Assembly: GCA_014730235.1 (NCBI GenBank) | Contig: WJIO01000381.1 | Coordinates: 1 to 35,915 of the forward strand | Direction: 5' to 3' | Length of the DNA: 35,915 bases | Source: Candidatus Poribacteria bacterium | Lineage (GTDB): Bacteria; Poribacteria; DTPJ01; WJIO01 | Shown: positions 110 to 22,729 of the stretch, piece by piece | Position numbering within the stretch: the stretch's first letter is position 1 | How the letters are laid out: the number at the start of each line of letters is the position of its first letter | Made by a program: the position numbers and the translations under genes | The notes under the pieces: generated by a model | Databases searched by the model: none | Told to the model about the DNA's origin: nothing | Seen by the model: the letters and a program-made list of their open reading frames with translations, nothing else

Positions 110-727
110 TTAATTGGATTTTGTCTCTTCTTTCTGGGATTCTTTATCAGATGAATCAGAATCTTTTTGTGTTGTTGAAGCTTTACTTGAAGAATGTTGT
201 TTATATGCATCATCCAGCATGGAAGTAACTTTACTGGTTAAATCAAATTCAGGATTAAGATATAAAACTATCAGACGCTTCTCCAGAACAAGATCATATC
301 CTTCATCTATAGAAAGTTTCTTAATAGTGTTTTTCATTTCTTCCAATATAGGTTCCAGAATTTCTTGCTGTCTTTCTGATAATTGTGCATTTCCCTGCTG
401 AATGAGAAGCTCTCTGCCCTGTTTTTTATTAGCTATTTCGCTTTGTAATTCTTTTTCTTTTTCTGTATCTTCAAGAAAAGCCTTTTGCTTTGCCAGATTA
501 GCTTCAAGTTCAGCAATTTCATCATTTAAATCCTTAACTCTTTGTTCCCATGCATCCCTGTCTTTTTCCATCTCTTCAATAGCTTTTTTACCCCATATGG
601 AATCCTCAAGGGCTTTTTCGGTATCCACAGCCGCTATTTTTGGCTGGCTCTGGGCCAAGGTCGAAGTACATGTAATTATAACTAAAAAAGCCAATGTTAT
701 AAGGCAGAATGTCTTTTTCATGGTCAT
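110..727 (-). CDS. skp: OmpH/Skp-family periplasmic chaperone
   Basis: A 205-residue secreted protein. A signal peptide covers about residues 1-25 (KK, hydrophobic run, cleavage near LAQ-SQ). Residues about 45-130 are strongly charged and coiled-coil-like (repeated EE/EK/QK heptads), matching the tentacle helices of Skp/OmpH. These trimeric chaperones hold unfolded outer-membrane proteins in the periplasm and deliver them to BamA. The C-terminal 30 residues are a Ser/Asp/Lys-rich tail beyond the normal Skp fold. Two Met codons lie close together; AGGAGA is 5 nt from the first (727) and 11 nt from the second (721), so I keep the first. It sits 72 bp downstream of bamA and 29 bp before lpxD, so it is probably cotranscribed with both. 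Confidence 0.9.
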   Translation of the reverse strand: MTMKKTFCLITLAFLVIITCTSTLAQSQPKIAAVDTEKALEDSIWGKKAIEEMEKDRDAWEQRVKDLNDEIAELEANLAKQKAFLEDTEKEKELQSEIANKKQGRELLIQQGNAQLSERQQEILEPILEEMKNTIKKLSIDEGYDLVLEKRLIVLYLNPEFDLTSKVTSMLDDAYKQHSSSKASTTQKDSDSSDKESQKEETKSN

Positions 728-799
728 TAAATTCTCCTGTTACGTTGAGCAAATTCAAATAAACATATTGAATTCAATCTGGATATTAAGGAATTTCCC

Positions 800-3193
800 T
801 TAAAATGCCGGACCTATGTCAAATTCAATTTTACCACCCTTGATTTTATCACCTTCCATTGCCGGATCCAGAGGTATACCATATTCAATTCGCGCCAAAG
901 CACCCAAAAGGTCGATCCTCAGACCAATACCCACAGACTTTCTGGGTTTGAAGTTATCCCAGGGTAATATGTTATCAGCCCATGTTTGACCAGCGTCAAA
1001 GAATATTAAACCTCTTAACATGTCTGTTATAGGAAAACGATATTCCACATTAAGCAAAGCCATTTGATTACCACCATATTCTTCATAGCCATTTGACGGT
1101 CTGATGGAATAATTCTGGTAACCTCGTACTGTATCTATTCCACCAAGATAAAACCTCTCATACCTTAGATTCAGCAGGTTTGGATAATCGCCTGTAAAGT
1201 ATCCTGCTTGCATATGAAAAACTAATACAAGTTTCCACCATGTTGGAATAAATATACTGGATTCGACCATATATTTCTGGAAAACGTCACCACCCCAGCC
1301 CGAAAATTCCGAAGAAATACGGTTGTGAAGACCGCTGCTGGGATCAAACATACTTGTGATAAATTGACGGGAATCATGATCTAAAATAAGTTTTACACTC
1401 CGGGTTCTGCCTGCATACATCTCCTCCCAGACTTCACCCATAAGTTCTTTATATGATACATTTTCATTTCTAAGGCCTATGGAAAGGTCAATATTATTGG
1501 TTAAAGGGCGTCCTATAGTAATAGCTCCGCCAACGCTTTCATCCCTGTAAAGGGCTTCTTCATCTTCACCAGGATAATAAGTGGTGCTTCGACGTTTACT
1601 ATATAGGCTTGCAGCCAATGATATAGGGTTATTAAAAATCCAGGGAGTGCTGAAAACTATCTGACCTGTTCGTCTTTCTCGTGTACCTATTTCACCCCTG
1701 AGTTGCATTCTCCAGGCCCTGCCAAAGATGTTATCATCCCATATATCCAGAGCACCGAAAACCCCGCCATCTGAGCCATAACCACCGGCAATGCTGAACA
1801 TTCCCGATTGACGGGACTCTTCAATATCAAAATTGACAGTTACAAGCTGAGTACCGTCCTCTGACATAGATGAAACAGGCACAGCACGGGGTTGAGCACC
1901 TCTTATGAATGAACCAAGAGTTAATATTTTTCTACGGGCATCGGTGATGTTCTGGTATGAAAACACCTCACCTTTTTTGATGTCAAATCGCTCGAGTTCC
2001 CTTCTTATAACATATTCTTTGGTTTTATGCGGTTCTTCGTTAGTTTCTGATACCCAGTTAATAGGAACACTTTCGATATACGCGGGGCCGCCTTCAGCAA
2101 TATTCAGGGTTATATCCACAACTTCGTCTTCATTTTTATATTCTAATTCTTCATTTATCTGGATAGATACGCGGCCCTTGTCACCGTAAATTTTATTTAT
2201 TTTAGCCAGAGCCATCTGGAAGTTAATATGGCTGAATATATCCCCTTCTTCAAGTTCCGATTCTTCCAGAATTTCTTTTTCTGAGTAGATTTGGTCTTCG
2301 TCTTTAAAGGGTACCACGTTTACAGCTATAGAACCAATGCGAAATTGAGGTCCTTCTTCCAGTTCTATATTCACCACAAGCCCGGTCCTATCTTCATTAA
2401 AATCTTTATCGGCATTTATAATCCTGGCATTTATAAAGCCATTTTCATGATAATATTCTATTATGGCTTTTAAGTCACCTTCAAAATATTCGTCATCAAA
2501 CCGCTTTCCTTTTTTGGTTTTCATCTGTTTTCTGATATCCCGGTCTGATACTCTTCTATTTCCTACAATATCTATCTCTTCCACTTCAATTTTATTGCCT
2601 TCTTCGATATTGAACTTTACTGTAACGGCATCATCAGATTCCACTTTTTCAATATCAGTCTTAACTTCTGCCAGGTAGTAACCTTTATTTTGGTAAAGAG
2701 AAAGTATTTTTGCTCTATTCTCATGCAGTAATTTGCCGCTGGTGCTCCGACCGGAGCTTATAGTTAAAACGTCCTTTATTTTTCCATCATCTATTTCTTC
2801 ATTGCCGCTTATTATAACATCTTTTGTTTTGGGCCATTCTTCCAGTATAAATGTTAGATGTATACCATCAGGGCCGCCTGATGAATCAACCTGGATATTT
2901 GAAAACTGACCAAGTTTATATAGTTCCTTAACATCATCTCTTATGAGTTTAAGAGATACCTCTTCGCCAACTCTGGTCTGAAGTATACCCAGAATTGTGT
3001 CTGGAGGCATAGTTTCGCTGCCTTTTATCTCGATAGATCTTATAATAAAGGGATTATTTCCATCTGAAGATCCGATTTTAGTGGATGTATCATCAACTTC
3101 CTGAGCCGTTGAGAAGAATATAGCAGGCAATGAAAACATCAGTATAAATAAAACATAGGCCAACTTCCGATTCCTTGCCTTTTTACTTCGCAT
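800..3193 (-). CDS. bamA: BamA, outer-membrane protein assembly factor
   Basis: The 797-residue length is normal for BamA. A signal peptide (residues 1-30) is followed by five POTRA-like repeats (about 50-440; for example an 'IRSIEIKGSE..' opening at about 50 and 'EEIDIVGNRRVSDRDI' at about 205) and a C-terminal 16-strand barrel. The barrel carries the VRGY motif of loop 6 (about 689-692) and ends in Phe, the usual terminal aromatic residue of outer-membrane barrels. BamA folds and inserts barrel proteins into the outer membrane. Its start has a GGGGG Shine-Dalgarno-like tract 8 nt upstream. A 258-bp gap from clpC contains a possible own promoter, so it may be expressed both separately and by read-through. 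Confidence 0.97.
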   Translation of the reverse strand: MRSKKARNRKLAYVLFILMFSLPAIFFSTAQEVDDTSTKIGSSDGNNPFIIRSIEIKGSETMPPDTILGILQTRVGEEVSLKLIRDDVKELYKLGQFSNIQVDSSGGPDGIHLTFILEEWPKTKDVIISGNEEIDDGKIKDVLTISSGRSTSGKLLHENRAKILSLYQNKGYYLAEVKTDIEKVESDDAVTVKFNIEEGNKIEVEEIDIVGNRRVSDRDIRKQMKTKKGKRFDDEYFEGDLKAIIEYYHENGFINARIINADKDFNEDRTGLVVNIELEEGPQFRIGSIAVNVVPFKDEDQIYSEKEILEESELEEGDIFSHINFQMALAKINKIYGDKGRVSIQINEELEYKNEDEVVDITLNIAEGGPAYIESVPINWVSETNEEPHKTKEYVIRRELERFDIKKGEVFSYQNITDARRKILTLGSFIRGAQPRAVPVSSMSEDGTQLVTVNFDIEESRQSGMFSIAGGYGSDGGVFGALDIWDDNIFGRAWRMQLRGEIGTRERRTGQIVFSTPWIFNNPISLAASLYSKRRSTTYYPGEDEEALYRDESVGGAITIGRPLTNNIDLSIGLRNENVSYKELMGEVWEEMYAGRTRSVKLILDHDSRQFITSMFDPSSGLHNRISSEFSGWGGDVFQKYMVESSIFIPTWWKLVLVFHMQAGYFTGDYPNLLNLRYERFYLGGIDTVRGYQNYSIRPSNGYEEYGGNQMALLNVEYRFPITDMLRGLIFFDAGQTWADNILPWDNFKPRKSVGIGLRIDLLGALARIEYGIPLDPAMEGDKIKGGKIEFDIGPAF

Positions 3194-3451: not shown

Positions 3452-5896
3452 TTACGAACTTGCACAGGTTACAGGTTCACCTATATTGAATACGAGTTTT
3501 TCACCATCGAAGGAAACATATATGGTATTTTCTGTTGCACTTCCTTCGATCATCATATGAGCGATGGTATCTTCTATATTTCTCTGAATTTCCCTTCTAA
3601 GATGCCTTGCACCAAAATGCGGGTCATAACCCTTTTCGACAATAAAGTCTACAGCATCAGAAAGAACAACCAGATCAACCTGGTTCTCTTTAAGACGCTC
3701 TTTAACTTCATCCAGCATCAGTAATGTAATTTTGGAAATATGCTCTTTTGCCAGTGAATTAAAAACAATAACTTCATCTATTCTGTTAAGGAATTCGGGA
3801 TTGAAAACACGTTTCATTTCCGACATAACCCTGGAGCGCATATCCTCATAACTTTTGCTTTCACTCATGTGGCTGAAACCAAGACTTGATCCCTTTGCGA
3901 TTTCCCTTCCGCCTGCGTTGGATGTCATTATCAGAATAGTATTCCGGAAATCCACCGTATGACCAAGGTTATCGGTTAGGCGACCGCTGTCCAGAACCTG
4001 TAACAAAATATTAAATACATCAGGATGAGCTTTTTCTATTTCATCCAGCAAAATTACGGAGTAAGGTCGTCTCCTTACCCTCTCTGTAAGCTCTCCACCT
4101 TCTTGATAACCCACATATCCAGGAGGTGCTCCAACCAGTCTTGATACCGCGAATTTTTCCATAAATTCGGACATATCAATTCGAATAATTGCATCTTCTT
4201 CTCCGAACAGGAATTCAGCTAATACATTGGCCAAATAGCTTTTTCCAACACCTGTAGGCCCCATAAATATAAATGAACCAATTGGCTTGGTTGGATCTTT
4301 AAGACCTGCTCTGGAACGTCTTACGGCTTTGACCAGGGCAGAAATAGCCTGATCCTGACCTATTACCTGTTCACAAAGTGCATCCTCCATACGAAGCAGT
4401 TTTTCAGATTCTGTCTCTTCTAGTTTTGATATGGGAATACCTGTCCACTTGGATATTACCTCTGCAATATCTTCAATATCAACCTTTAGTTTTTCTCGTT
4501 TAGAGGCATGCCCTGATTGATTTAAGGAATCATCATCCCCGGGTTCCTGTCCGCCCATTACAAGGGAAGGTATTCTAATATTAGCCAGACTTGATGTAGC
4601 CAATTCATGATCCCTGTCCATTTCTACCTTTTTGGATTCATCAATATCTTCATTTAATATGGTTTTGGCTATTTGGCATTCTTCTTTGCCTGCTCTCATT
4701 CTAACCCGGGATCCAGCTTCATCAATCACATCTATGGCCTTATCGGGCAGGTAACGGTCTGAAATATATCTGGCAGAAAGTTTTGCTGCTTCGGAGAGTG
4801 ATTCTTTGGAATATTCAACACTGTGATGTTCTTCATATTTATCCTTGAGTCCATTAAGGATCATTATCGTATCTTTTACAGAAGGTTGAGCCACATTCAC
4901 AATCTGGAATCTTCTTTCTAGAGCACCATCTTTTTCAATATACTTACGATATTCATCAAGGGTAGTAGCTCCAATGCACTGAATCTCCCCCCGCGACAAA
5001 GCAGGTTTCAGCATATTAGCTGCATCTATTGCACCTTCAGCCGCCCCGGTACCCACCAGAGTATGAATTTCATCAATGAATAATATAATGTCTTTTGATT
5101 GTCGAATTTCATTCATTATATTCTTCAATCGTTCTTCAAACTGTCCCCTGTATTTCGTACCTGCCACCAATCCAGCCAGATCAAGAGTAACCAGACGTTT
5201 ATCCAGCAGAGAATCAGGAACACAACCTTCAATGATCTTCTGGGCCATACCTTCGGCAATAGCTGTCTTCCCTACACCAGGCTCACCAATAAGGACAGGA
5301 TTATTCTTTTTACGTCTTATGAGAATTTGCATAACCCTTTCCATTTCATTTTCCCGTCCTATAATTGGATCAAGCAAATTTTCCCTGGCAAGCTGTGTTA
5401 AATCACGGCTGTATTGGTCTACAGCTTTAGGTGATTTTTTAGGAGAGGGATTTGAAATAAATGGTCTTAGGGCTTTGCGCACCTTTTCTAATGTAATATC
5501 AAAGTTGGTAAGAGTTTGAGCCGCTATACCGTTTTTCTCCCGGATCAATCCTAATAGAATATGCTCTGTGCCTACGTGCTCATATTCAAGCCTTTGTGCT
5601 TCTTCCATAGAAAGCTGTAGAACTTGATTTGCTGCTCTGGTAAATACCAAAGGTCGTTTTATGGAATCTGTAGTCGGCGTACGAGATTTTCTAATCATAC
5701 GCTTCGCTTCCATTTCTAAACGCTCCAGGCTGACCCCTAAGTCCTGTAGAGCTTTGGCGGCTATACCCTCACCTTCACGAACTAAACCCAACAACAAATG
5801 TTCGGTATCCACCTGGCTGTGGTTTAGTCGTATGGCTTCATCATTTGCATAGTTAATTACCATACGTGCTCTTTCGGTAAACCTTGCCGGAAACAT
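3452..5896 (-). CDS. clpC: ClpC-type AAA+ unfoldase of the Clp protease
   Basis: An 814-residue Hsp100 protein. Two ClpN repeats (about 3-70 and 80-145) are followed by AAA-1 (Walker A GEPGVGKT 204-211, Walker B ILFIDE 271-276) and AAA-2 (Walker A GPTGVGKS 546-553, LLDEIEKAHPDVF Walker B). It unfolds proteins for ClpP; in Firmicutes it recognises phospho-arginine-tagged proteins through its N domain. The middle region (about 405-470) is odd. Its first part resembles the coiled-coil M-domain, but about 440-468 is a Gly/Asp/Ser-rich stretch where the second half of the coiled coil is expected. The ATG has GAGAGGT 6 nt upstream. It follows the McsAB gene by 35 bp, and the pairing fixes the identity as ClpC and not ClpB or ClpA. 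No clpP is in view. Confidence 0.95.
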   Translation of the reverse strand: MFPARFTERARMVINYANDEAIRLNHSQVDTEHLLLGLVREGEGIAAKALQDLGVSLERLEMEAKRMIRKSRTPTTDSIKRPLVFTRAANQVLQLSMEEAQRLEYEHVGTEHILLGLIREKNGIAAQTLTNFDITLEKVRKALRPFISNPSPKKSPKAVDQYSRDLTQLARENLLDPIIGRENEMERVMQILIRRKKNNPVLIGEPGVGKTAIAEGMAQKIIEGCVPDSLLDKRLVTLDLAGLVAGTKYRGQFEERLKNIMNEIRQSKDIILFIDEIHTLVGTGAAEGAIDAANMLKPALSRGEIQCIGATTLDEYRKYIEKDGALERRFQIVNVAQPSVKDTIMILNGLKDKYEEHHSVEYSKESLSEAAKLSARYISDRYLPDKAIDVIDEAGSRVRMRAGKEECQIAKTILNEDIDESKKVEMDRDHELATSSLANIRIPSLVMGGQEPGDDDSLNQSGHASKREKLKVDIEDIAEVISKWTGIPISKLEETESEKLLRMEDALCEQVIGQDQAISALVKAVRRSRAGLKDPTKPIGSFIFMGPTGVGKSYLANVLAEFLFGEEDAIIRIDMSEFMEKFAVSRLVGAPPGYVGYQEGGELTERVRRRPYSVILLDEIEKAHPDVFNILLQVLDSGRLTDNLGHTVDFRNTILIMTSNAGGREIAKGSSLGFSHMSESKSYEDMRSRVMSEMKRVFNPEFLNRIDEVIVFNSLAKEHISKITLLMLDEVKERLKENQVDLVVLSDAVDFIVEKGYDPHFGARHLRREIQRNIEDTIAHMMIEGSATENTIYVSFDGEKLVFNIGEPVTCASS

Positions 5897-5931: not shown

Positions 5932-7437
5932 TTAATTATTGCTTAACACCTGACTCATGTTACCTTTCAATATTTTTCTTATAATTGCTGCTCTTTTTGT
6001 GTCCCGCTCAATTGCTTCGAGCCTTTTTCCTTCGTATTTTTGCAAATGTGCAGGACGTATAAGAAACATAAGACGTGCTATATCATTTCTATTCAGATCT
6101 GACAGAATTCCCAAATTTATCCCCAAACTTAACCAGGACAAATTTCCTAAGGCATCCTGACATGAGATCATCCTGGCGTTAGTCAGGATTCCATAAGCTC
6201 TGAATACTTTATCCTTTATCATCATTCGACTGTTATTTAACAATATTTCCCGTTCTTCTCGCTCATAATCTGCAATTTGAACAGCCACCTCATGAACACG
6301 ATCCAGGATATCCTCTTCTGATTGTCCCAGAGTAGCCTCATTTGAAATCTGGTAAAACGCTCCTCCATTGTAAGAACCTTCACCATACATACCCCTGATA
6401 GCATAACCCATATCAGACACAGACAGCAAAGCCTTTTTTCCTTCTCTGGTGGAAGCCAGAGCGGGAATATGAAACATAACTGAGACACGCAATCCTGTAC
6501 CTGCATTGGTAAGACAAGCTGTAAGATAGCCAAAATCCTGAGAAAAAGCGTAATCTACATATCGACTTAATTTATTATCTATAGAATCCATTATTTCCCA
6601 GGAATTTTTGATCTGCAAACCAGAATTCATAACCTGAAGACGTATATGATCTTCTTCATTTAGCATAATGCTGACAGTTTCATCTTCACCTATAATAACT
6701 CTGTATGGTGTTAATATTCCTGATTTATTTTCCTTTTCTTTATCATTTACTTTCTCTGATAAGTCATTGCTAATCACATGACGCTCAACCAGAAAATCCC
6801 TTTCCAGCTTGTCTAATCGCTCAAGTCTTATTACCGATGCGTTTCGCAATTCCGATTTTGCTTTATTGCTTATACTTTCTAATGCCTTTTCGGCAATTTC
6901 TGCGACTTTCTGTAGTTCAATTTTTTCTGCCTGATTACAAAAAGGAAAATCCATAAGATTACGTGCTAATCTTATCCTGGTACTTATTATAACATCACTA
7001 TCGGGTCCATCTCCCTGCATCCATCCGGAAGCCGTATATGCGGCACGGTTCATAAACCTGAAAGTCCTGTTTCGTCTTCTTGGCTTACTGCCTTTACCTG
7101 TAATATCCGGCGTTTTACCAACATGTATTACATCTCCATGTATGCGCCGGATAATAGGTTTTAATTCTTTTTTAAATTCTTTGTAACACCTGAAGCAGCC
7201 TAATAATTCCGGACAATTAAAAGAAGCCATATTTTCCAGAGCTGCTTTTGAATATTCCCGACCACAATGCTGGCATTTGAGCTTTATGTCAATTTCCCTT
7301 TCAGGATTATCAAAGTCATCACAGATACCTTTTTCCACAGCACATCCTTCACACAAATTCATGTATTTATTAACAGAGTCGCATGATATGCTTATGGTAA
7401 ATGATGCTCGATTTTTCTGACATCTTTCACACAGCAT
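5932..7437 (-). CDS. mcsB: McsA-McsB fusion: zinc-finger activator joined to protein arginine kinase
   Basis: One 501-residue reading frame carries both partners of the protein-arginine phosphorylation system. Residues 1-110 are McsA-like, with four CXXC zinc pairs (3/6, 29/32, 55/58, 81/84) and the conserved 'KPIIRRIHGDVIHVGKTP' tail. The Glu/Ala-rich UVR coiled coil that normally ends McsA is missing. After a basic linker (111-130), residues about 138-490 are McsB, a guanidino-kinase fold with STRIRLARN (152-160), NEEDH (260-264), a Cys-containing TNAGTG segment (308-315) and the phospho-arginine pocket signature RDxxRA (RDTKRA, 478-483). The enzyme phosphorylates arginines to mark proteins for ClpC. 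It sits 15 bp after ilvE and 35 bp before clpC. No CtsR repressor gene is next to it. A frameshift artefact is unlikely because both halves share one uninterrupted frame. Confidence 0.93.
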   Translation of the reverse strand: MLCERCQKNRASFTISISCDSVNKYMNLCEGCAVEKGICDDFDNPEREIDIKLKCQHCGREYSKAALENMASFNCPELLGCFRCYKEFKKELKPIIRRIHGDVIHVGKTPDITGKGSKPRRRNRTFRFMNRAAYTASGWMQGDGPDSDVIISTRIRLARNLMDFPFCNQAEKIELQKVAEIAEKALESISNKAKSELRNASVIRLERLDKLERDFLVERHVISNDLSEKVNDKEKENKSGILTPYRVIIGEDETVSIMLNEEDHIRLQVMNSGLQIKNSWEIMDSIDNKLSRYVDYAFSQDFGYLTACLTNAGTGLRVSVMFHIPALASTREGKKALLSVSDMGYAIRGMYGEGSYNGGAFYQISNEATLGQSEEDILDRVHEVAVQIADYEREEREILLNNSRMMIKDKVFRAYGILTNARMISCQDALGNLSWLSLGINLGILSDLNRNDIARLMFLIRPAHLQKYEGKRLEAIERDTKRAAIIRKILKGNMSQVLSNN

Positions 7438-7452
7438 TTTATTTCAACCTAT

Positions 7453-8331
7453 CTATTCATATATCGGTGTACCGGTAGTTTGAGTTAATACTTCAAATCT
7501 CTTCTTTAGTTCCTTGGATATTTCGCCTGGTTTTCCATCACCGATTATGCGCCCATCAACTTTTACAACAGGTATTACTTCCGCTGCTGTACCTGTAAGA
7601 AAGCATTCATCAGCCAGATAAACTTCATAGCGGTTAAACAAAGCTTCTATAACCTCTAAACCCATATCCCTGGCAAGCTCCATAGTAGCATTTCTTGTTA
7701 CACCCTCCAATGCGCCTATATAGGTGGGTGGTGTATAAAGCACACGATTCTTTATAATGAATATATTATCACCGGTGCATTCCACAACATGGCCGTCATT
7801 ACTGAGCATTATTGCCTCTATCACATTGGCGTTTTTTGCTTCAATTTTTGCCAGTATATTATTCAAATAATTAAGAGATTTTATCCGGGGGTTAAGGGCT
7901 TCTGCTATGTTTCTACGGGTTGGGGCAGTTACAACCTCCAATCCCTCCTGGTAATACTTATCAGGATAAAGAACTATAGAGGATGCGATAACAAATACGG
8001 AAGCTACAGAACATTTATCAGGATCTAATCCTAAGTCACCTACTCCTCTGGTAACAACGGCTCTTATGTAACCATAATGGAGATCATTGCGTCTTATGGT
8101 TTCAAGAATAGCCTGTTCCATCTCGTTAATGTCAAGAGGAATCTCTAACCTTATGGCCTTTGCAGAATCGTATAATCTCTGGAGATGTTCATCTAATCTG
8201 AATACCCGGTTATTGTAGAACCTTATTCCCTCAAAAACACCATCACCATATAGCAGGCCATGATCAAATACCGATATTTTTGCCTCTGATTCTGGAACAA
8301 ATTTACCATCCAGATATATAATTAAGCTCAT
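7453..8331 (-). CDS. ilvE: Branched-chain amino acid aminotransferase (fold-type IV PLP enzyme)
   Basis: The 292 residues are the usual length for class IV aminotransferases. The N-terminus has the 'DHGLLYGDGVFEGIR' signature, the PLP lysine lies in 'RIKSLNYLNN' (about residue 151), and the C-terminus has 'DECFLTGTAAEVIPV'. IlvE transfers amino groups between glutamate and Val/Leu/Ile keto acids; a D-amino acid aminotransferase or aminodeoxychorismate lyase is less likely given the full match to the EGIR and TGTAAE signatures. It is the first gene of ilvE-mcsAB-clpC, 168 bp downstream of lolD, with a G-rich Shine-Dalgarno tract before the ATG. Its link to arginine phosphorylation looks positional and not functional. 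Confidence 0.9.
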   Translation of the reverse strand: MSLIIYLDGKFVPESEAKISVFDHGLLYGDGVFEGIRFYNNRVFRLDEHLQRLYDSAKAIRLEIPLDINEMEQAILETIRRNDLHYGYIRAVVTRGVGDLGLDPDKCSVASVFVIASSIVLYPDKYYQEGLEVVTAPTRRNIAEALNPRIKSLNYLNNILAKIEAKNANVIEAIMLSNDGHVVECTGDNIFIIKNRVLYTPPTYIGALEGVTRNATMELARDMGLEVIEALFNRYEVYLADECFLTGTAAEVIPVVKVDGRIIGDGKPGEISKELKKRFEVLTQTTGTPIYE

Positions 8332-8499: not shown

Positions 8500-9207
8500 T
8501 TATTGCTGCTGTTGGGATATATCGTTTTTATAATCAACTGTAACTTCCGTCATATATCCATCAGCTAATTTTATTATTCTATCAGAACGTTGTGCTAAGT
8601 TCTGGTTGTGAGTTGCTATTATAAATGTCTGATTCAGTTTCTGATTCAGTTCCCACAAAAGGTCATGCACCTCTTCGCTGGTTTTCCTGTCCAGGTTACC
8701 GGTGGGTTCATCAGCTAAGATTACCTTAGGATTGTTCGCCAGTGCCCTGGCCACAGCTACTCTCTGTTGCTCGCCTCCTGATAACTTCCCTGGTTTGTGT
8801 TCTTCTCTTCCTTCAAGACCTACATTTTTTAAAAGCGACAAGGCTGAGTCATAGGCTTCTTTCCGGTCTTTATTGCCAATAAGTAAAGGCATCATAACAT
8901 TTTCCACTGCTGAAAATTCAGGCAGCAGATGATGAAATTGGAAGATAAATCCGATTTCCCGATTTCGGAAACTGGCTAACTCATTGTTAGAAAGTTCAAA
9001 AACGTCTTTATCATCATACAGTATCTTTCCATTAGTAGGACGATCAATAGTACCTAAGAGGTTTAAAAGAGTGCTTTTTCCTACACCGGAAGCCCCGACA
9101 ACAGCGATTATTTCACCTGCCTCAATTTTTAAATTAATACCTCTTAATACATGAATTTCCTCAGTTCCGCTGGGATACACTTTTTGAATTTCTATAGTTT
9201 CTATCAA
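8500..9207 (-). CDS. lolD: LolD-like ABC ATPase of lipoprotein release
   Basis: A 235-residue ATPase with Walker A GASGVGKST (38-46), signature LSGGEQQR (142-149) and Walker B VILADE (162-167) followed by PTGNLD, the MacB/LolD subfamily hallmark. LolD powers extraction of lipoproteins from the inner membrane for transfer to the outer membrane. It lies 26 bp downstream of the LolC-type permease and is clearly its partner. The start is a TTG at 9207, with AGGAAA about 10 nt upstream; no ATG or GTG fits the conserved N-terminus better. The C-terminal ~20 residues (ending QQQQ) extend slightly past the domain. Confidence 0.9.
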   Translation of the reverse strand: MIETIEIQKVYPSGTEEIHVLRGINLKIEAGEIIAVVGASGVGKSTLLNLLGTIDRPTNGKILYDDKDVFELSNNELASFRNREIGFIFQFHHLLPEFSAVENVMMPLLIGNKDRKEAYDSALSLLKNVGLEGREEHKPGKLSGGEQQRVAVARALANNPKVILADEPTGNLDRKTSEEVHDLLWELNQKLNQTFIIATHNQNLAQRSDRIIKLADGYMTEVTVDYKNDISQQQQ

Positions 9208-9233
9208 TAAACTTTTTCCTTTTAATTATTTCC

Positions 9234-10490
9234 TTATTCGTATCTCAGCGACTCCACAGGCTCCATAATGGAAGCGCGCCATGCAGGATATATAGTGGCA
9301 AGCCAGCAAATTATTAGTGAAGCCAGGTTCACAAACCCTACGAAAGACCATCTTACCTCAGCCGGAAGCCTGTCTATCTGATATATGCTGTTTGGTATCC
9401 TGATAGGTATCCATGTACGAAGAGACCAGCAAAGGAAAACACCCAGCAAAGTTCCAAGAATAGCACCCACAACACCTATTAAAGTTCCCTCAAAAGTAAA
9501 TATAAACCAGATGCTTTTCTTGGTAGACCCCATGGATTTAAGTATGCCAATCTCTTTGGTTTTATCCATGACCATCATGACAAGGGTACTGGCTATATTA
9601 AAGGCGGCTACGAATATTATTAATGCTTCTATGATGAAAGTAACTATCTTTTCTAGCTTTATAGCCGAAAATAAACTTTCATGTGCTTCCATCCATGTCA
9701 TTGTGGGATAGAATATTCCCAATTCCATCTGTATATCTTTTCTAATTTTATCAACCTTATATATATTGTCAACCTTAATCTCGATCCTGTCCACAGCGTC
9801 CAGGACATCATAAAGCTCCTGGCCGATATACAAATCTACAAAGGCCAGAATGTTGTCATAGCTGTACATTCCCGAATCGTAAATGTCGATGACAACGAAT
9901 GTTCTGATTACTGGTTGCAGACTCCCCGCTATATTCACCAGCCGGGATACCAGTCGAATTATATCACCTTTGCCAACCTGTAGCCTATTGGCTACACCTT
10001 TGCCCAGGATAATTCCACCGAAAATAGTATCTTCAGTTCTATCCTGGGCCAGTTCGATTAAAGGCGATTCAAAATCAACATCTTCCGATACATAATCGCT
10101 TATTCCTGTCACCTGAGTTTCCAGTTCCGGGTTTATGGCCTTAACCATTGCCCCCATTTGATTGGAACCATCCTCATTCTGAAGATAAGCCTGGCGCATA
10201 AGAACCGGAGCAGTAGCAACCACCCCTTCTACATTTTCGATTTTATCCATCAGCGTTCGATAGGTGCTGATTGGACGATCACCACTACCGAATATGAATA
10301 TATGTCCTTCCGATCTAAGCATTTTATCCCTTATCATGCTTTCCCAACCATTCATAACCGACAAAGCTACGATAACGGTTGCTACTCCAACGGCAACTCC
10401 GCCAACGGAGATAAGGGATATAAAAGAAAGGAAAAATTGTCCACTTCGGGATTTCAGATAACGCAGGGCAATGAAAATTTCGTATCGCAT
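9234..10490 (-). CDS. lolC: LolC/LolE-family lipoprotein-releasing permease
   Basis: A 418-residue inner-membrane protein with one N-terminal membrane helix (about 22-46), a periplasmic domain of about 220 residues and three C-terminal helices (about 280-300, 335-360, 380-400), the standard LolC/E architecture. The coupling motif 'DKTKEIGILKSMGST' follows the second helix. Only one such permease is here, so the complex is probably a homodimeric LolC2D2 (often called LolF type), unlike the LolCDE of E. coli. It lies between lysS (33 bp) and lolD (26 bp) on one strand, an order also known from delta-proteobacteria-like genomes. The Shine-Dalgarno is weak. Confidence 0.92.
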   Translation of the reverse strand: MRYEIFIALRYLKSRSGQFFLSFISLISVGGVAVGVATVIVALSVMNGWESMIRDKMLRSEGHIFIFGSGDRPISTYRTLMDKIENVEGVVATAPVLMRQAYLQNEDGSNQMGAMVKAINPELETQVTGISDYVSEDVDFESPLIELAQDRTEDTIFGGIILGKGVANRLQVGKGDIIRLVSRLVNIAGSLQPVIRTFVVIDIYDSGMYSYDNILAFVDLYIGQELYDVLDAVDRIEIKVDNIYKVDKIRKDIQMELGIFYPTMTWMEAHESLFSAIKLEKIVTFIIEALIIFVAAFNIASTLVMMVMDKTKEIGILKSMGSTKKSIWFIFTFEGTLIGVVGAILGTLLGVFLCWSLRTWIPIRIPNSIYQIDRLPAEVRWSFVGFVNLASLIICWLATIYPAWRASIMEPVESLRYE

Positions 10491-10523: not shown

Positions 10524-12005
10524 TTAGAGCCCTTCTTCAGGTCGCATTTGCGGGAAAAGTATTACATCGCGCAACGAAGGCATATCAGTAAGCAGCATAA
10601 CTAACCTTCCGATACCTATACCAAGCCCTCCAGTAGGCGGCATACCGTATTCCAAAGCCCTTAGGAAATCATCATCCATAACGTGGGCTTCTTCATCTCC
10701 AGCTTCCTTCTGCCGAACTTGGTCTATAAATCTCTCCCGTTGATCTATAGGATCATTCAACTCGCTGAAGGCGTTACCTATTTCCAATTTGCCAATAAAT
10801 ATCTCAAAGCGTTCCGTTAAAGTCTCATCATCCCGCTTCTTTTTTGCAAAGGGTGAAATTTCTATTGGATAATCAGTAATAAAAGTGGGCTGAGTCAGGT
10901 TTACCTCAACAAATTCTTCAAAAAATCTCTCGATAATCTTTCCTCTTGATATTCCTTCATCCAATTCTATATGATGTTCTGATGCCAGTTTCAACATATC
11001 CTCCCTGGACATGTCTTTAATATCAGCTCCTAAAGCATCTTTGATGCCATCCAGCATAGGAAGTCTGCGCCAGGGTGGTGACAAATCTATCTCTTCGCCT
11101 TGATAAGTTATTTTAGTTGTTCCATGTAGTTTTTCGGTCACACTGGATATCATTTCTTCAGTCAACTGCATTATATCTTCATAATCGCTGTAAGCCTGAT
11201 AAAGCTCCAGCATAGTAAACTCTGGATTATGGTCTCTGTCCATACCTTCGTTACGGAAGTCTTTTCCTATTTCATACACCCTGTCAATTCCACCTACGAT
11301 CAGACGTTTCAGATATAGTTCATCAGCTATTCTCAAATATAAATCCATCTCTAGAGCGTTATGACGGGTTACAAAAGGTCGCGCGGTCGCCCCTCCGTAT
11401 ATGGGTTGCAAAACCGGTGTGTCAACTTCCACAAAACCCCGATTATCCAGAAATGCCCTTATAGACTGGATTATTTTTGTCCTGGACAAAAATACTTTCT
11501 TAACTTCAGTATTTACTATAAGGTCAACATACCTCTGTCTGTATCTTGTTTCAACATCTTTTAATCCGTGCCATTTTTCCGGCAAAGGTCGCAGAGATTT
11601 GGTAAGTAGTGTGAGTTTTTCCACATGGACGGTCAATTCTCCGGTTCTTGTTCTGAATATCCAGCCTTCAACGCCGATTATATCACCAATATCCAGCCTT
11701 TTATAAATATTATCAAAATCTTCTTCACCGAGCTTATCTCTGCGTATATATAGCTGTATTCTTCCTGTTGAATCCTGAATATGGACAAAACCTACTTTAC
11801 CATGTCCTCGCATGGACATGATACGACCAGCCATCTTTACAGGAAATTCTTTTTCAGCAAATTCCTGTTTATCATCATATTTTTCTATGGCTTCGGCAGA
11901 CTGATGATCAACTGTAAAATTATAGGGATAAGGATCAATCCCAACTTCCCGAATTTCCTGGAGTTTGTTGATGCGTTGCTGTATCAGGTTACTGCTCTGT
12001 CCCAC
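10524..12005 (-). CDS. lysS: Lysyl-tRNA synthetase, class II
   Basis: The 493 residues are the typical length for LysRS-II. The N-terminal OB-fold anticodon-binding domain (about 55-150, 'VKMAGRIMSMRGHGKVGFVHIQD') is followed by the class II catalytic core with motif 2 ('FRNEGMDRDHNPEFTMLE') and motif 3 ('GLGIGIGRLVMLLT') at the C-terminus. It charges tRNA-Lys with lysine. The start is GTG at 12005, with AGAGGT 5 nt upstream. It is the first gene of lysS-lolC-lolD, driven by the consensus promoter at 12095-12123 with a leader of about 83 nt. Confidence 0.97.
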   Translation of the reverse strand: MGQSSNLIQQRINKLQEIREVGIDPYPYNFTVDHQSAEAIEKYDDKQEFAEKEFPVKMAGRIMSMRGHGKVGFVHIQDSTGRIQLYIRRDKLGEEDFDNIYKRLDIGDIIGVEGWIFRTRTGELTVHVEKLTLLTKSLRPLPEKWHGLKDVETRYRQRYVDLIVNTEVKKVFLSRTKIIQSIRAFLDNRGFVEVDTPVLQPIYGGATARPFVTRHNALEMDLYLRIADELYLKRLIVGGIDRVYEIGKDFRNEGMDRDHNPEFTMLELYQAYSDYEDIMQLTEEMISSVTEKLHGTTKITYQGEEIDLSPPWRRLPMLDGIKDALGADIKDMSREDMLKLASEHHIELDEGISRGKIIERFFEEFVEVNLTQPTFITDYPIEISPFAKKKRDDETLTERFEIFIGKLEIGNAFSELNDPIDQRERFIDQVRQKEAGDEEAHVMDDDFLRALEYGMPPTGGLGIGIGRLVMLLTDMPSLRDVILFPQMRPEEGL

Positions 12006-12094: not shown

Positions 12095-12123
12095 ATTATA
12101 AGTCAAAAGAGCATATGTGTCAA
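12095..12123 (-). promoter_or_regulatory. Consensus sigma-70 promoter of lysS-lolC-lolD
   Basis: On the minus strand TTGACA (12118-12123), a 17-bp spacer and TATAAT (12095-12100) match the consensus exactly. Predicted start of transcription is near 12088. The remaining part of the 327-bp lysS-upstream gap holds AT-rich DNA (12124-12244) and the palindrome at 12245-12304. Confidence 0.88.
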
Positions 12124-16276: not shown

Positions 16277-18124
16277 TCACATGCACTTCAGTACTATCCC
16301 CCATTTACCTATTACCCAACCTGTGTCACGATTGATAAAGTTTAACCCGGTCAACTCATTTTCCACAAGGCCTTTTTGCTGTTTCCACGTTTTCCCGCCG
16401 TTTGATGTATGCAGAATAGTTCCAAAGCCGCCTACCGTCCATCCATTGTCTTTATCGGCAAAGTATACCTCAGCAAGGCTGTTTTTGGTTCCGCTTTCCT
16501 GAACCGTCCACGTTTTCCCGCCATCGGATGTATAAAGAATAGTTCCGGCAACACCCACAGCCCAGCCTGTGTTCTTATCAACAAAGTATACATCATTTAG
16601 CAGGTTCATTGTACCACTATTTTGCCTGTTCCATGTCTCTCCGCCGTCGGATGTGTACAGAATTGAACCGATCATGCCTACAGCCCAACCGTTTTTAGGA
16701 TCAGTAAAGAACACCTGGGAGAGGTAGTCCCATGTATCAGTATTCTGTTTCCACCACGAAAGACCGCCGTCGCTGGTGTGAAGGACAATGCCGTTCATAC
16801 CCACAACCCAACCTTCGTCCCGGTCGATGAAATGGACACCTAACAGCACATCGTCTGTACCGCTGTTTTGCAGTTTCCAGGTTTTTCCACTGTCAGATGT
16901 GTGTAAAATTGCACCTCCTGTGCCTACAGTCCAGCCAAGTTTCGGTGTTGGGAAGTAAACCCTTGAAAGACATTCGTTTGTGCCGCTGTTTATGGACTTC
17001 CACGCTTGACCACCGTCGGTTGTATGCAATATCATACCCCGGTCGCCCACGATCCAGCCCTCCTTGTCGTTCACAAAAAACACACCGGACTGTAGTTCGC
17101 TGCTGCTGGATTGGGGAGACCACGTTTTACCGCCATCGCTTGTTGCTATAATAGTACCGTGTTCACCTACAGCCCAGCCAATGCTGGTATTGGCAAAGTC
17201 CACACCCAAAAGGACGTTGCTGGTTCCGCTGGTCTGGGTGTTCCATGTAGTGCCACCGTCGCTGGTATGGAATATCTGACCGTTCCAGCCCACAAGCCAT
17301 CCATATTTTTCATCCACAAAATCCAGGTCATAAAGTCCAAAATCACATTCCGTCTTATCCCTATTGATGCTGTAATTACCCAGAAGAGGACCGTTTGCCT
17401 GGGGAATCCATGTCTTTCCTGCGTCGTCTGTATGGACTATAAGATTACCTTCTCCCACAGCCCATCCCTTTTGACTACCGAGAAAATCCACTGAGCGTAT
17501 TTCACAGCCTTCCACATTTACCAACTGAGCATGAACTTCAGCTCTTGCATCCTGCCTGTTCCAGGTTTCGCCGCCGTCACTGGTATAAAGCATCAAGCCA
17601 TCCAGACCGCTGACCCAACCTTGTCTTTCATCAGAGAAATATACGGACAGATAAACACTGTTTTTGTCTTTCAACTGTGTCTTCCAAGTCTTACCACCGT
17701 CAAGAGTTTTCAGCAAAATATTATTTCCCGATGTAAACCCCATCATATTATCCAGAAAATACAGGTTATAAAGGGAATTTTCCGTATTACTTTCCTGTGG
17801 TTTCCAGTTATTTCCCCCATCATCGGTATGTATTATTATACCATTATCACCGGCGATCCATCCGTATTTATCATCAACAAAATATACAGTTCTTAGAAAT
17901 GTATCCGTGCCACTTTCACTTTTATGCCAGGACATACCTCCATCTTCTGTATATACAATCATACCTTCATCGCCCACAGCCCATACAACATTATCGCTCA
18001 GGGCAAAAACATCATGAAAATGAGTACTCCATGATGCCTCCCGAACTACGCTCCAATCGCTGTATGAGATAGATGAGAATAAAAACAGTATAATTATTGA
18101 ATAATTTATAAATTTTATATACAT
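16277..18124 (-). CDS. Exported YCF48-repeat (BNR-like) beta-propeller protein
   Basis: A 615-residue protein with a signal peptide (about 1-22, ending SISYS-DW) followed by tandem repeats of about 40 residues with the pattern GWAVG..GTILHTSDGGKTW..Q.SGT...L..V.F.D. I count 13 full repeats plus a C-terminal half repeat (GWVIGKWGIVLKC) whose missing part can be supplied by the N-terminal segment, giving 14 blades, that is two closed seven-bladed propellers. Ycf48 helps photosystem II assembly in phototrophs, but in heterotrophs the repeat is a general extracellular or periplasmic scaffold or binding fold; no enzymatic motif is visible. Blades 4 and 5 carry insertions of about 10-14 residues. 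The Shine-Dalgarno is weak. Confidence 0.9.
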   Translation of the reverse strand: MYIKFINYSIIILFLFSSISYSDWSVVREASWSTHFHDVFALSDNVVWAVGDEGMIVYTEDGGMSWHKSESGTDTFLRTVYFVDDKYGWIAGDNGIIIHTDDGGNNWKPQESNTENSLYNLYFLDNMMGFTSGNNILLKTLDGGKTWKTQLKDKNSVYLSVYFSDERQGWVSGLDGLMLYTSDGGETWNRQDARAEVHAQLVNVEGCEIRSVDFLGSQKGWAVGEGNLIVHTDDAGKTWIPQANGPLLGNYSINRDKTECDFGLYDLDFVDEKYGWLVGWNGQIFHTSDGGTTWNTQTSGTSNVLLGVDFANTSIGWAVGEHGTIIATSDGGKTWSPQSSSSELQSGVFFVNDKEGWIVGDRGMILHTTDGGQAWKSINSGTNECLSRVYFPTPKLGWTVGTGGAILHTSDSGKTWKLQNSGTDDVLLGVHFIDRDEGWVVGMNGIVLHTSDGGLSWWKQNTDTWDYLSQVFFTDPKNGWAVGMIGSILYTSDGGETWNRQNSGTMNLLNDVYFVDKNTGWAVGVAGTILYTSDGGKTWTVQESGTKNSLAEVYFADKDNGWTVGGFGTILHTSNGGKTWKQQKGLVENELTGLNFINRDTGWVIGKWGIVLKCM

Positions 18125-20024: not shown

Positions 20025-20788
20025 GTGATTTCTCCAATATTTGTTAAATGATTAATTTCCCTGGTCATTTCCACATAGGCAGGATCATCCTTCATAGGCC
20101 CAATAGTACGGGTACATCTAACAAAGCAATATATTATATTCCGCATCTCTTCTACTGAAAGATTCCGTTTGTTGCACCATTCCATACAATAAGGTAAAAG
20201 ATGCAGGGAAAGGTAATCAACAGGTGGCTCTCCTTCCCTGATGGATGGCTGAATGAAATTAAAATCCAGCTTTCGGTAACCCAGCTTTTTCCAGAGTTTT
20301 TCCCTCTTCCAGGGGTTCATGGTATCGTGTTTGATTTGCTGTGGAGACATTAAACCCGGATCGCTAACCTGAATTACCAGACCTTTAATATTTGAATTGA
20401 ATTTTTTAGCGTCGTTTTTCAGGATATTATCCCGAATTGATATAAGTTCAGAGCCTATGCCATTGCCCTGGAACTCTCTCTTTGTGGCCAGATATGATCC
20501 CATTCCTATACCGGTGTTTGCATTATAAAATTTATGTGAAAATCTGAAAAAGTAGAATGACACTCCGCCAACCACACAATCATTTTCAACTGCCAGAACC
20601 ATGTGGTATCGGCATATTTCGCCTTCGTCCTCCCAGCTTCCCTTCGATATATTGTAGCGTAGTATGTCCAAATCTTCCCGCTCAAAAGGGTCGGGAAAGG
20701 CTTCTTTCAGTATGTTATGAAACTGCTTTATCTTATCGCTTTTTGGATTATTTATCTCTATATACTTCATGATTTTATTCAAGATCAT
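20021..20788 (-). CDS. GNAT-family N-acetyltransferase
   Basis: A 255-residue protein with the acetyl-CoA-binding motif A 'REFQGNGIGSELI' (104-116; the family Q/RxxGxG/A pattern) after beta strands at about 64-82. The C-terminal ~100 residues extend past the acetyltransferase core and are unique. Substrate unknown. The ATG at 20788 overlaps the end of the preceding gene by 14 bp; a second in-frame ATG at 20770 would begin closer to the domain (KYIEIN..), and neither has a strong Shine-Dalgarno. It forms a coupled pair with the sulfatase-fold gene (4-bp overlap), which suggests that the two act in one process. Confidence 0.82.
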   Translation of the reverse strand: MILNKIMKYIEINNPKSDKIKQFHNILKEAFPDPFEREDLDILRYNISKGSWEDEGEICRYHMVLAVENDCVVGGVSFYFFRFSHKFYNANTGIGMGSYLATKREFQGNGIGSELISIRDNILKNDAKKFNSNIKGLVIQVSDPGLMSPQQIKHDTMNPWKREKLWKKLGYRKLDFNFIQPSIREGEPPVDYLSLHLLPYCMEWCNKRNLSVEEMRNIIYCFVRCTRTIGPMKDDPAYVEMTREINHLTNIGEIT

Positions 20789-21860
20789 ACTTCTGCTTTA
20801 AAATTTCAAAACGTCTGTTTCTTTCCTCAGCAATCTTCTGCCGATGCACCATGAGTTTTCCCTCTGTGATTACATTTTCCAGAACATGTTCCCCGATTTC
20901 ATCAACCACTGGAGAAGCGGGGATTATTGAGAACATATCCCGGAAGGTATCGTCAGAGAAAAGGCTGTCTATATCGGACAATATATAATCAAGGCTGCCC
21001 AGATACAAGGAGGAAATAAATAAGGCCCGGTAAGGGTCATTGCCGGTTTTTATAAATACTGGAACAAGCAGATTTTCCCCGTGCCCGGTGTTAAAATAAA
21101 TTTCATCTACTTTCCGTATGTATACATCACCATAAAAGTCAAAGTTAATAATATAAAATTCAGCTTCGTTTATTATACTTTTCAGCAAATCATCCGCAGC
21201 AGAAGTCAGACAATATCCATCTTCATTGTCAATCAAGCTCTGGGATATAAGGTCATCTATTATGGCATCCTCTTTTAATTCCGGCAGTTTACCAAACTTG
21301 TCCATTACATACAACAAGAAAATCTGCCTGAATTCCTTCAACATTATATCCTTCTGCTGCTGGCTAAGTAGATAAAAAGGATCCATCTTATCAGGAATTT
21401 CAATGACAAGATCAAGCAGATAATATGATCCAGCTTTAGAAAATTGAAGCTGTTGATGACGGGATATAGGGTCATCAGGAGAAATACGAGCTTGACCGTT
21501 ATTTATATAATAAGTCGCGTCCAGCTTCCCAGCCCTAATGAGAGTCAGAAGCTTAATCAGATTTTCGTATACCTCCAGTAGATCCGGGTTACCAATGTCT
21601 ATAAGTCTCTGTTTAACCTTGCGCTGATCTTTTTTATCATGACAAAGGAAATACCTTTCCAAAACTTCCCATACAGATAAATCTGAAGCTGAATCCGGCA
21701 AATCCATGTAAAAGCTATCTAACAAATCCATATTCCCAAGGGTTATACGCAGTATCAGCGGTATTCCTTCAAAATCTTCAGGAACTGGAGGAAATCCAAT
21801 AGCTCTATAAAATTTTTCTTCAAAAGAACCTGGTTCTATTGTTTTTTGATAAGATTCCAA
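20775..21860 (-). CDS. Protein of unknown function, cytoplasmic, in the SecA-linked cluster
   Basis: 361 residues, not recognised. It is acidic and mixed alpha/beta, with no signal peptide, membrane helix or cysteine cluster. A short segment at about 198-232 (DLISQSLIDNEDGYCLTS) resembles a winged-helix hairpin, but this is weak. The C-terminal 30 residues are a charged helix. The start is TTG at 21860, inside the 3' end of the lipoprotein gene (25-bp overlap), and the stop lies inside the GNAT gene (14-bp overlap), so its translation depends on its neighbours. No ATG occurs before residue 43, so if TTG is wrong the N-terminus is shorter. The overlaps argue that it is real and functionally tied to the lipoprotein and SecA. 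Confidence 0.75.
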   Translation of the reverse strand: MESYQKTIEPGSFEEKFYRAIGFPPVPEDFEGIPLILRITLGNMDLLDSFYMDLPDSASDLSVWEVLERYFLCHDKKDQRKVKQRLIDIGNPDLLEVYENLIKLLTLIRAGKLDATYYINNGQARISPDDPISRHQQLQFSKAGSYYLLDLVIEIPDKMDPFYLLSQQQKDIMLKEFRQIFLLYVMDKFGKLPELKEDAIIDDLISQSLIDNEDGYCLTSAADDLLKSIINEAEFYIINFDFYGDVYIRKVDEIYFNTGHGENLLVPVFIKTGNDPYRALFISSLYLGSLDYILSDIDSLFSDDTFRDMFSIIPASPVVDEIGEHVLENVITEGKLMVHRQKIAEERNRRFEILKQKYDLE

Positions 21861-22729
21861 TCTGATATAAATCCTATACCTGCGCCAGCAATTCCACCCC
21901 GAAAACCTCTACTGGAAGAACGGGATGATCTACTACCCCATCTGGATCTGGAACTACTGCTTTTTCTTGTAAATGTGCCTTTGGATCTTGCTGTTGCCTT
22001 TTTTAGATTAACCCCGGATCGGGTTGCCCATCTCTGTCTATTAGAACTGGGACTGGCTTTTTTATAACTGGTTCCATGTTTTGTAGACATCCTGGTCTGA
22101 TATCTTCTGTTGGTATCAATTTGCCGCCTGTAACTTGGAGTTTTGCGGTAGCTGTCCCGGTAATTCCTTATTACCGTTGCATCCCGAACGGTGGTATGAT
22201 ATACAGGGGCCATATATCGAGGTCGTGAAAGGGCATCAAATATTAACCATGTGGTCAATAGATTCATACCTGAGTATGAGTTGCGGTAATATGAATTTAC
22301 ACCATAACCCTGCATTTCGTATCGAGGTCTTTCACCCTCATACCATCTGCGGAATGTAAACAGCTTATCATCGCTGTTCTGATCAATCTCCAGATTGTTG
22401 TTGAGGTCAGCAAAGCCTGAAACCAGCTGCTCTTTTCCCTGGTTTCTGACCTCTATGAGAACCATCTCCTCACCCTGATAAATTTCATTTACGCGTTTTT
22501 CAAATTCGGACACGTTCTCCGATTTTTTCATGGCCTCTTCTACGGCTTCCAGGTTTATCTGTCCCGCTTTACCACTGGTTTCTGCCCACTGTTCCCGTCT
22601 GCTAGCACATGCACCTAAAGCCAATATACTTCCGCCGGCAATTACACCCGAAGCGGCAATGCTTCCGTATTTAAGCATTAACCCCTTTCGGTCTGGTTTG
22701 TATATATCCGGCTTAGAAAACTTTTCCAT
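21836..22729 (-). CDS. Putative lipoprotein with calcium-loop-like motif and Ser/Arg-rich tail
   Basis: 297 residues. A hydrophobic segment (about 24-40) ends in the lipobox LGAC (Cys41), so export and lipidation are likely; the basic N-region is unusually long (about 20 residues). Residues 108-116 (DLNNNLEID) resemble a calcium-binding EF-hand or dockerin-type loop. From about 185 to 280 the protein is rich in Ser, Arg and Lys, with alternating S/R at 256-274, then a Gly-rich end. The tail is reminiscent of YgiB/UPF0441-like lipoproteins, but I cannot confirm homology. A perfect AGGAGGT precedes the ATG, and the gene is 19 bp after the divergent secA, so it is a natural candidate for that translocase's substrate or partner. 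Confidence 0.8.
   Translation of the reverse strand: MEKFSKPDIYKPDRKGLMLKYGSIAASGVIAGGSILALGACASRREQWAETSGKAGQINLEAVEEAMKKSENVSEFEKRVNEIYQGEEMVLIEVRNQGKEQLVSGFADLNNNLEIDQNSDDKLFTFRRWYEGERPRYEMQGYGVNSYYRNSYSGMNLLTTWLIFDALSRPRYMAPVYHTTVRDATVIRNYRDSYRKTPSYRRQIDTNRRYQTRMSTKHGTSYKKASPSSNRQRWATRSGVNLKKATARSKGTFTRKSSSSRSRWGSRSSRSSSRGFRGGIAGAGIGFISDWNLIKKQ

Follow-up and report, generated by a model that had tools for sequence, protein, structure and literature searches.

Can a protein-arginine kinase carry its zinc-domain activator in the same chain, and what would such an arrangement mean for the unfoldase encoded beside it? We addressed this question for a 35,915-nt stretch of Candidatus Poribacteria contig WJIO01000381.1 (here called the window), in which a sequence-only reading had proposed that McsA, the activator, and McsB, the kinase, share one reading frame. 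Our analysis confirms that the fusion is real: a single open frame holds both domains. The earlier reading had missed the neighboring ClpC, which has lost its M-domain and K85 while keeping its phosphoarginine (pArg) pockets, as well as the relatives that carry clpC without McsB; these findings say more about the system's mode of action than does the fusion by itself.

The fused frame

The frame, which we call mcsAB, opens with ATG, counts 501 uninterrupted codons, starts 15 nt past the ilvE stop, and is laid out as follows (window positions).

5932..7437, minus strand: mcsAB, McsA zinc modules fused to the McsB protein-arginine kinase, 501 aa (family models, structure matches, AlphaFold2)
7330..7437, minus strand: McsA zinc module 1, residues 1-36, with C3/C6 and C29/C32 (sequence, McsA alignment, pLDDT mostly 75-92)
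7102..7284, minus strand: McsA zinc module 2, residues 52-112, with C55/C58, C81/C84, LGCxxCYxxF, and HxGKxP (NF053706, 8gqd_E, 8wtb_B)
7030..7101, minus strand: short linker, predicted to be disordered, in place of the McsA UVR coiled coil, with Met129 (pLDDT <50 over residues 115-134)
5962..7029, minus strand: McsB kinase and dimerization domain, residues 137-492 (NF002194, Foldseek, conserved residues)
5992..6006, minus strand: pArg-receptor motif RDxxR, R478-R482 (alignment; equivalent to R337/D338 of B. subtilis McsB, role in PMC8370763)

The assembled frame has no stop or frameshift at residues 110-135, where one would have separated the two genes, and McsA is thus not a separate polypeptide here. 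Family models and the sequences of solved structures match the respective halves, McsB being hit by 6fh1 (E 1e-79) and McsA by 8wtb chain B and 8gqd chain E, which bears out the original one-frame claim. AlphaFold2, supplied with an input alignment of read-through McsA-McsB pairs from loci with both genes in one frame, returned a model with mean pLDDT 84.9 and pTM 0.80, in which the zinc modules and the kinase lie mostly at 75-98 and residues 115-134 fall below 50.

On the McsA side, the four CxxC pairs pointed out earlier are complete, all eight zinc cysteines being kept (C3/C6, C29/C32, C55/C58, C81/C84), and module 2 retains its invariant residues (C55 C58 G80 C81 Y85 F88 G107 K108) together with the LGCxxCYxxF and HxGKxP motifs. 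The McsA model NF053706 matches residues 51-122 (E 7.5e-12; 45.4 bits versus a cut-off of 210) over model positions 76-140 of 182, and since the alignment ends at position 140, the UVR end of McsA is missing. The loss of this coiled coil, likewise claimed before, holds in the DNA, the model, and the alignment: no UVR remnant can be read at the junction in any of the three forward frames at the DNA level, and a UVR is readable in 114 of 115 neighboring McsAs, the remaining one being cut by Ns. McsAB differs from these 115 proteins in two more respects: the conserved amphipathic F(S/G)xxDLLAGL segment, which in them lies between the two zinc modules, is gone, and eight residues are inserted in module 2 after its first cysteine pair. 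A separate UVR-bearing McsA was not found elsewhere in the assembly, where the other UVR matches belong to UvrB, UvrC, a short UvrC-like protein, and a weak ClpB match. As a side observation, contig C371 of G000 (L173) carries a second, short UvrC-like protein (GIY-YIG plus UVR, 373-aa frame) besides the full UvrC.

On the McsB side, the models cover residues 138-492, with PF00217 (E 2.3e-56; 190.9 bits, cut-off 22.4) and NF002194 (E 1.5e-115; 386 bits, cut-off 385) exceeding their thresholds and NF053707, a Bacillota-type McsB model, scoring 357.5 against a cut-off of 500. All catalytic residues checked (C308, E261, E262, H264, R266, R317, R348, and E353) are intact and are invariant in 119 other McsBs, and the RDxxRA phospho-arginine pocket first read from the letters is present by alignment (R478, D479, R482, A483). 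The kinase fold of the predicted model matches that of pArg-bound McsB 6fh3 (Foldseek TMt 0.91). Among 63 near-invariant columns (at least 95% conserved among the 119 other McsBs), 58 are kept (92%; the same measure in other McsBs has a median of 100% and a lowest value of 89%), and in the McsB tree McsAB sits on a long branch (1.89) without a close relative, two features that make relaxed selection possible. The position of the B. subtilis octamer residue R194 is lysine; we rejected this as a change specific to McsAB, as lysine is found in 51 of 78 non-Bacillota McsBs. Judged by these residues, mcsAB may encode a working protein-arginine kinase.

Distribution of the fusion

We directly read the sequences of about 160 further loci with mcsA and mcsB, from Bacillota, Omnitrophota, Planctomycetota, and other groups, and the two genes are split in all of them, including every Bacillota locus, as expected from the earlier statement that Firmicutes have separate genes. 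A scan of named genomes yielded 80 loci (Bacillota, Omnitrophota, Planctomycetota, Verrucomicrobiota, Auribacterota, Elusimicrobiota, and others), and a McsA domain inside the McsB frame was found in none of these 80 and in neither of two plasmid-borne loci. McsB-positive genomes numbered 711 (367 of 384 Omnitrophota, 203 of 216 Planctomycetota, and 141 of 149 Bacillota); among the matches listed for them (all for Bacillota, roughly the best 150 each for Omnitrophota and Planctomycetota), no match both begins in McsA zinc modules and is free of internal stops, save a few whose start lies no further back than about residue 90-107 and which proved to be split genes where read. Thirty more Omnitrophota loci and 51 long-frame suspects, read directly, are also all split. 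Three kinds of candidate relatives led to the same result: (i) the 510-590 aa frames reported for many McsB matches are not fusions, all 51 of those fetched being broken by a stop; (ii) the plasmid matches examined are ordinary split operons; and (iii) a viral contig scan with the McsAB protein returned no relatives. In this survey, which is a sample of public genomes, fused McsAB is seen only here, and a fusion elsewhere is possible.

In 37 of the split loci, mcsB continues the frame of mcsA after a single stop codon, so that fusion is mechanistically easy. Loci of this kind occur in many Bacillota and some Omnitrophota (e.g., L004, L006, L015, L120, and L147), and readthrough of the stop would give a McsA-McsB fusion there.

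The sequence-only reading had also pointed to an LPS-bearing host without an adjacent ctsR. This is no surprise, as Omnitrophota, Planctomycetota, and Chlamydia trachomatis have McsA and McsB too. Separate mcsA and mcsB beside clpC, downstream of ilvE, are the norm in Omnitrophota, and since that phylum shares the lysS-lolC-lolD and ilvE-mcsA-mcsB-clpC order, a ctsR-less operon is ordinary in outer-membrane bacteria. Our locus resembles those of Omnitrophota in its lysS-lolC-lolD-ilvE-...-clpC order and in the absence of ctsR from the gene run; in contrast, the genes of Omnitrophota, Planctomycetota, and other outer-membrane phyla are split in every locus read, with a UVR in McsA and an M-domain in ClpC. 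C. trachomatis likewise retains McsA and McsB together with ClpC in an LPS-bearing bacterium, but its genes are separate (mcsA, CT676; mcsB, CT675; PMC11708050). Compared to the McsA-McsB pairs of Bacillota (B. subtilis, S. aureus, and G. stearothermophilus; 6fh1-6fh3, 6tv6, 8gqd, 8wtb, 8wtc), the kinase fold, catalytic residues, pArg receptor, McsA zinc module 2, and a clpC directly downstream are alike, whereas McsAB is one chain with no UVR, no LLAGL helix, no CtsR, and lysine at the R194 position.

Gene neighborhood and regulation

The minus-strand gene run reads lysS-lolC-lolD-ilvE-mcsAB-clpC-bamA-ompH/skp. Apart from mcsAB and clpC, its features are as follows.

12095..12123, minus strand: putative sigma-70 promoter upstream of lysS, TTGACA-17-TATAAT (12/12 consensus match only)
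10524..12005, minus strand: lysS, head of the gene run
8500..10490, minus strand: lolD and lolC, for lipoprotein export (arranged as in phylum relatives and in Omnitrophota)
7453..8331, minus strand: ilvE-type aminotransferase, directly upstream of mcsAB with a 15-nt gap (family models)
110..3193, minus strand: bamA and ompH/skp (outer-membrane biogenesis), downstream of clpC

A PF05848 search found no CtsR gene adjacent to mcsAB, in agreement with the earlier reading, or elsewhere in the 5.53-Mb assembly, and neither a CIRCE element nor CtsR boxes above chance level occur in the 35,915-nt window. Combined with the sigma-70 consensus at lysS, these absences suggest that expression may be housekeeping and not stress-induced. 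As for controls, Lactococcus matched CtsR; B. subtilis, in which ctsR-mcsA-mcsB-clpC is known, gave no match to PF00217, NF053707, or PF05848 and is no positive test for the McsB and CtsR searches, the stretch seeming to be missing there. No YwlE-type eraser was found in the assembly (91.6% complete), whose sole LMW phosphatase found is ArsC-like and lies beside an arsenite permease. The assembly, a single MAG with a single fused sequence, consists of 451 contigs with 4.8% contamination.

Elsewhere in the window, 22749-25430 (minus strand) encodes a SecA-like ATPase of 893 aa. The two proteins beside it, 20775-21860 and 21836-22729, match nothing in Pfam, and one of the two resembles a lipoprotein and has a tail rich in Ser and Arg; the ATPase may be an accessory SecA of the SecA2 type that works with partners of its own. 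A 615-aa YCF48/BNR-repeat protein (16277-18124, minus strand) is also present in this heterotroph's contig.

The partner ClpC

The gene directly downstream of mcsAB encodes a ClpC with the following features.

3452..5896, minus strand: clpC, 814 aa, without M-domain (domain search, alignment, tree, model)
5456..5896, minus strand: ClpC N-terminal domain, with T7, R9, E32, and E111 (equivalent to E106) kept and N90 replacing K85 (alignment; residue roles in PMC12583610)
4493..4684, minus strand: degenerate M-domain region, residues 405-468 (UVR-type motif absent; pLDDT <50 over residues 431-466)

The N-terminal pArg-binding domain, two AAA modules, and the ClpP loop (SLGF, residues 671-674) are all present, and so is ClpP. 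Each of the 68 ClpCs of split loci has a coiled-coil M-domain that carries a UVR-type motif (usually Q(D/E)FExAAxxRD); in the ClpC beside mcsAB, the M-domain region has about the same number of residues and the motif is lost, with no remnant in other reading frames and with residues 431-466 unstructured in the predicted model. The K85 position, which is lysine in 67 of the 68, is asparagine here, and both pocket glutamates, E32 and E106, are retained.

In S. aureus and M. tuberculosis, the inactive resting state of ClpC depends on M-domains and on an anchor from K85 to AAA1, and ClpC becomes constitutively active once K85 or the M-domain phenylalanine (F436) is mutated (PMC12583610, PMC5699869). 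Activated forms are toxic to cells, as seen with M-domain mutants in both E. coli and B. subtilis (PMC5699869), so that an unlatched ClpC would need another restraint. If our inference holds, the ClpC beside mcsAB resembles the S. aureus F436A and K85A mutants (PMC5699869, PMC12583610) in having no resting state while its pArg pockets are present; unlike them, it is natural, belongs to a different phylum, and has the whole M-domain region replaced.

McsB-less relatives and the origin of the contig

Of 84 phylum genomes examined, the 83 others all lack McsB, an absence that rests on two independent searches and on synteny in six genomes. In five of these (G016, G039, G041, G042, and G043), clpC occupies the same place after ilvE and nothing of mcsAB is left; in G004, bamA comes straight after ilvE. 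In G016, the stretch between ilvE and clpC holds a 129-aa frame (L164, 6544-6930) that on visual inspection resembles an aspartyl protease of the retropepsin type. The ClpCs of the five McsB-less relatives are like the one beside mcsAB in their slot, in a lost or eroded M-domain, and in the loss of K85 (N or Q in its place); they differ in that mcsAB is absent and the pArg1 region is altered, by E106D and E8K in two and by R9S in three. The pArg-reading surface is thus intact where the writer remains and altered where it is absent, the latch being gone in both. As the five relatives and the mcsAB host form one clade, we regard this correlation as suggestive and not statistical.

In the ClpC tree, the mcsAB-linked protein joins the five phylum mates with a support of 99, those five forming their own clade at 100, and in the LysS tree the contig's LysS lies beside phylum members. 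The lysS-lolC-lolD-ilvE...bamA order is common to phylum mates, and ilvE is 70-71% identical to its counterparts in two of these genomes. Both trees and this synteny place the contig in its own phylum and reject a contaminant origin. The simplest reading is one ancestral operon from which relatives would have lost mcsAB. The only other genome of the order, G001, has no proper LysS match either, so that its lack of McsB is uninformative.

Discussion

The explanation we favor, at somewhat better than an even chance, is that mcsAB is a working kinase with its activator in the same chain, feeding pArg-tagged proteins to an unlatched ClpC-ClpP. In solved complexes, zinc module 2 is the part of McsA that touches and activates McsB; as a review describes for the S. 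aureus complex, this second zinc finger positions the catalytic cysteine loop of McsB (PMC12467219), and in B. subtilis oxidation of the McsA thiols releases McsB (PMC5506225). By analogy, zinc module 2, on its flexible linker, would be predicted to bind the kinase loop by which the catalytic cysteine is set in place, and with the finger tethered to the kinase, the pairing should be permanent. The zinc cysteines could still serve as an oxidation switch that turns the kinase off, and the UVR coiled coil and LLAGL helix, carried by a freely exchanging McsA, would have been dropped. A built-in activator, and with it the changed switch that the sequence-only reading envisaged, is a fair inference from the domain layout. 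The kinase would put phosphoarginine on proteins, and the downstream ClpC, with both pocket glutamates kept, would hand the tagged proteins to ClpP. Without M-domain and K85 anchor, this ClpC should not park itself and may be constitutively open, and substrate choice would then rest on the tag.

A one-chain kinase next to a latch-less ClpC suggests a shift of control to the arginine tag itself. Whether the whole amounts to a rewired degradation system, with the activator built in, an unfoldase without resting state, and phosphoarginine as the only gate, we hold tentatively, at a little under even chances. The retention of zinc module 2 alongside the loss of UVR and LLAGL points to such rewiring, and a pArg1 pocket kept here and altered in the McsB-less relatives is expected if a pArg writer still selects it. 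The model in which the tag is the gate fits the facts; a declining system fits them too.

The alternative that survives best, and that we regard as a serious though not quite probable one, is that ClpC lost its M-domain independently of the fusion, the loss being a phylum-wide ClpC change and the fusion a neutral joining of abutting genes, an easy step judging from the 37 same-frame loci. It is compatible with the explanation we favor and denies only the coupling. The five McsB-less mates, too, are without K85 and an intact M-domain, whose loss may therefore not be tied to the fusion. An M-domain is present in the ClpCs of mycobacteria, cyanobacteria, and plants, where McsA is lacking, and the two UVR elements thus need not go together. 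Yet all 68 split-locus ClpCs keep the M-domain, whereas none of the six ClpCs without a separate UVR-bearing McsA has an intact one, although these six are one clade.

It is unlikely, though well short of negligible, that the system is decaying, with the phylum losing arginine phosphorylation and mcsAB a late intermediate of little or no function: McsA would have shed UVR and LLAGL and fused, ClpC lost its latch, and other members lost mcsAB and mostly clpC as well. The 83 genomes without McsB, the five with clpC alone in its place, the direct ilvE-bamA junction of G004, the long McsB branch, and the failure to find a YwlE-type eraser in the assembly are all consistent with this course. However, the frame is intact, the checked catalytic residues and eight zinc cysteines are kept, and so is the pArg1 pocket that is altered in the McsB-less relatives.

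Considerably less probable is that the frame gives two products, full McsAB and a free McsB from Met129, with no strict one-to-one tie. Met129 is in frame, 8 residues ahead of the McsB core, and the junction has an AGGA 11 nt upstream; however, this spacing is longer than usual, Met129 is a candidate start only, and zinc modules and linker share the uninterrupted frame. An artifact, that is, a misassembled deletion joining mcsA and mcsB or a contaminant contig, is very improbable: the 451-contig MAG, its 4.8% contamination, its having the only McsB of its phylum, and the possibility that the stretch is simply missing from G001 would allow it, but the ClpC and LysS placements and the shared gene order and ilvE identity argue against it, and a random deletion would need to fall in frame on domain borders.

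If the explanation we favor is correct, the activator-fused single-chain kinase would also lend itself to structural studies as a reagent. The phylum offers a series of genomes with kinase and unfoldase, with unfoldase alone, and with neither, and thus a view of how bacteria lose arginine phosphorylation. The locus itself is a natural minimal version, a one-chain kinase with zinc modules only beside a ClpC that is expected to recognize pArg and has no M-domain for shutting itself down, and as such bears on which parts of McsA the activation of McsB needs and on whether ClpC needs its latch when the kinase itself is controlled.
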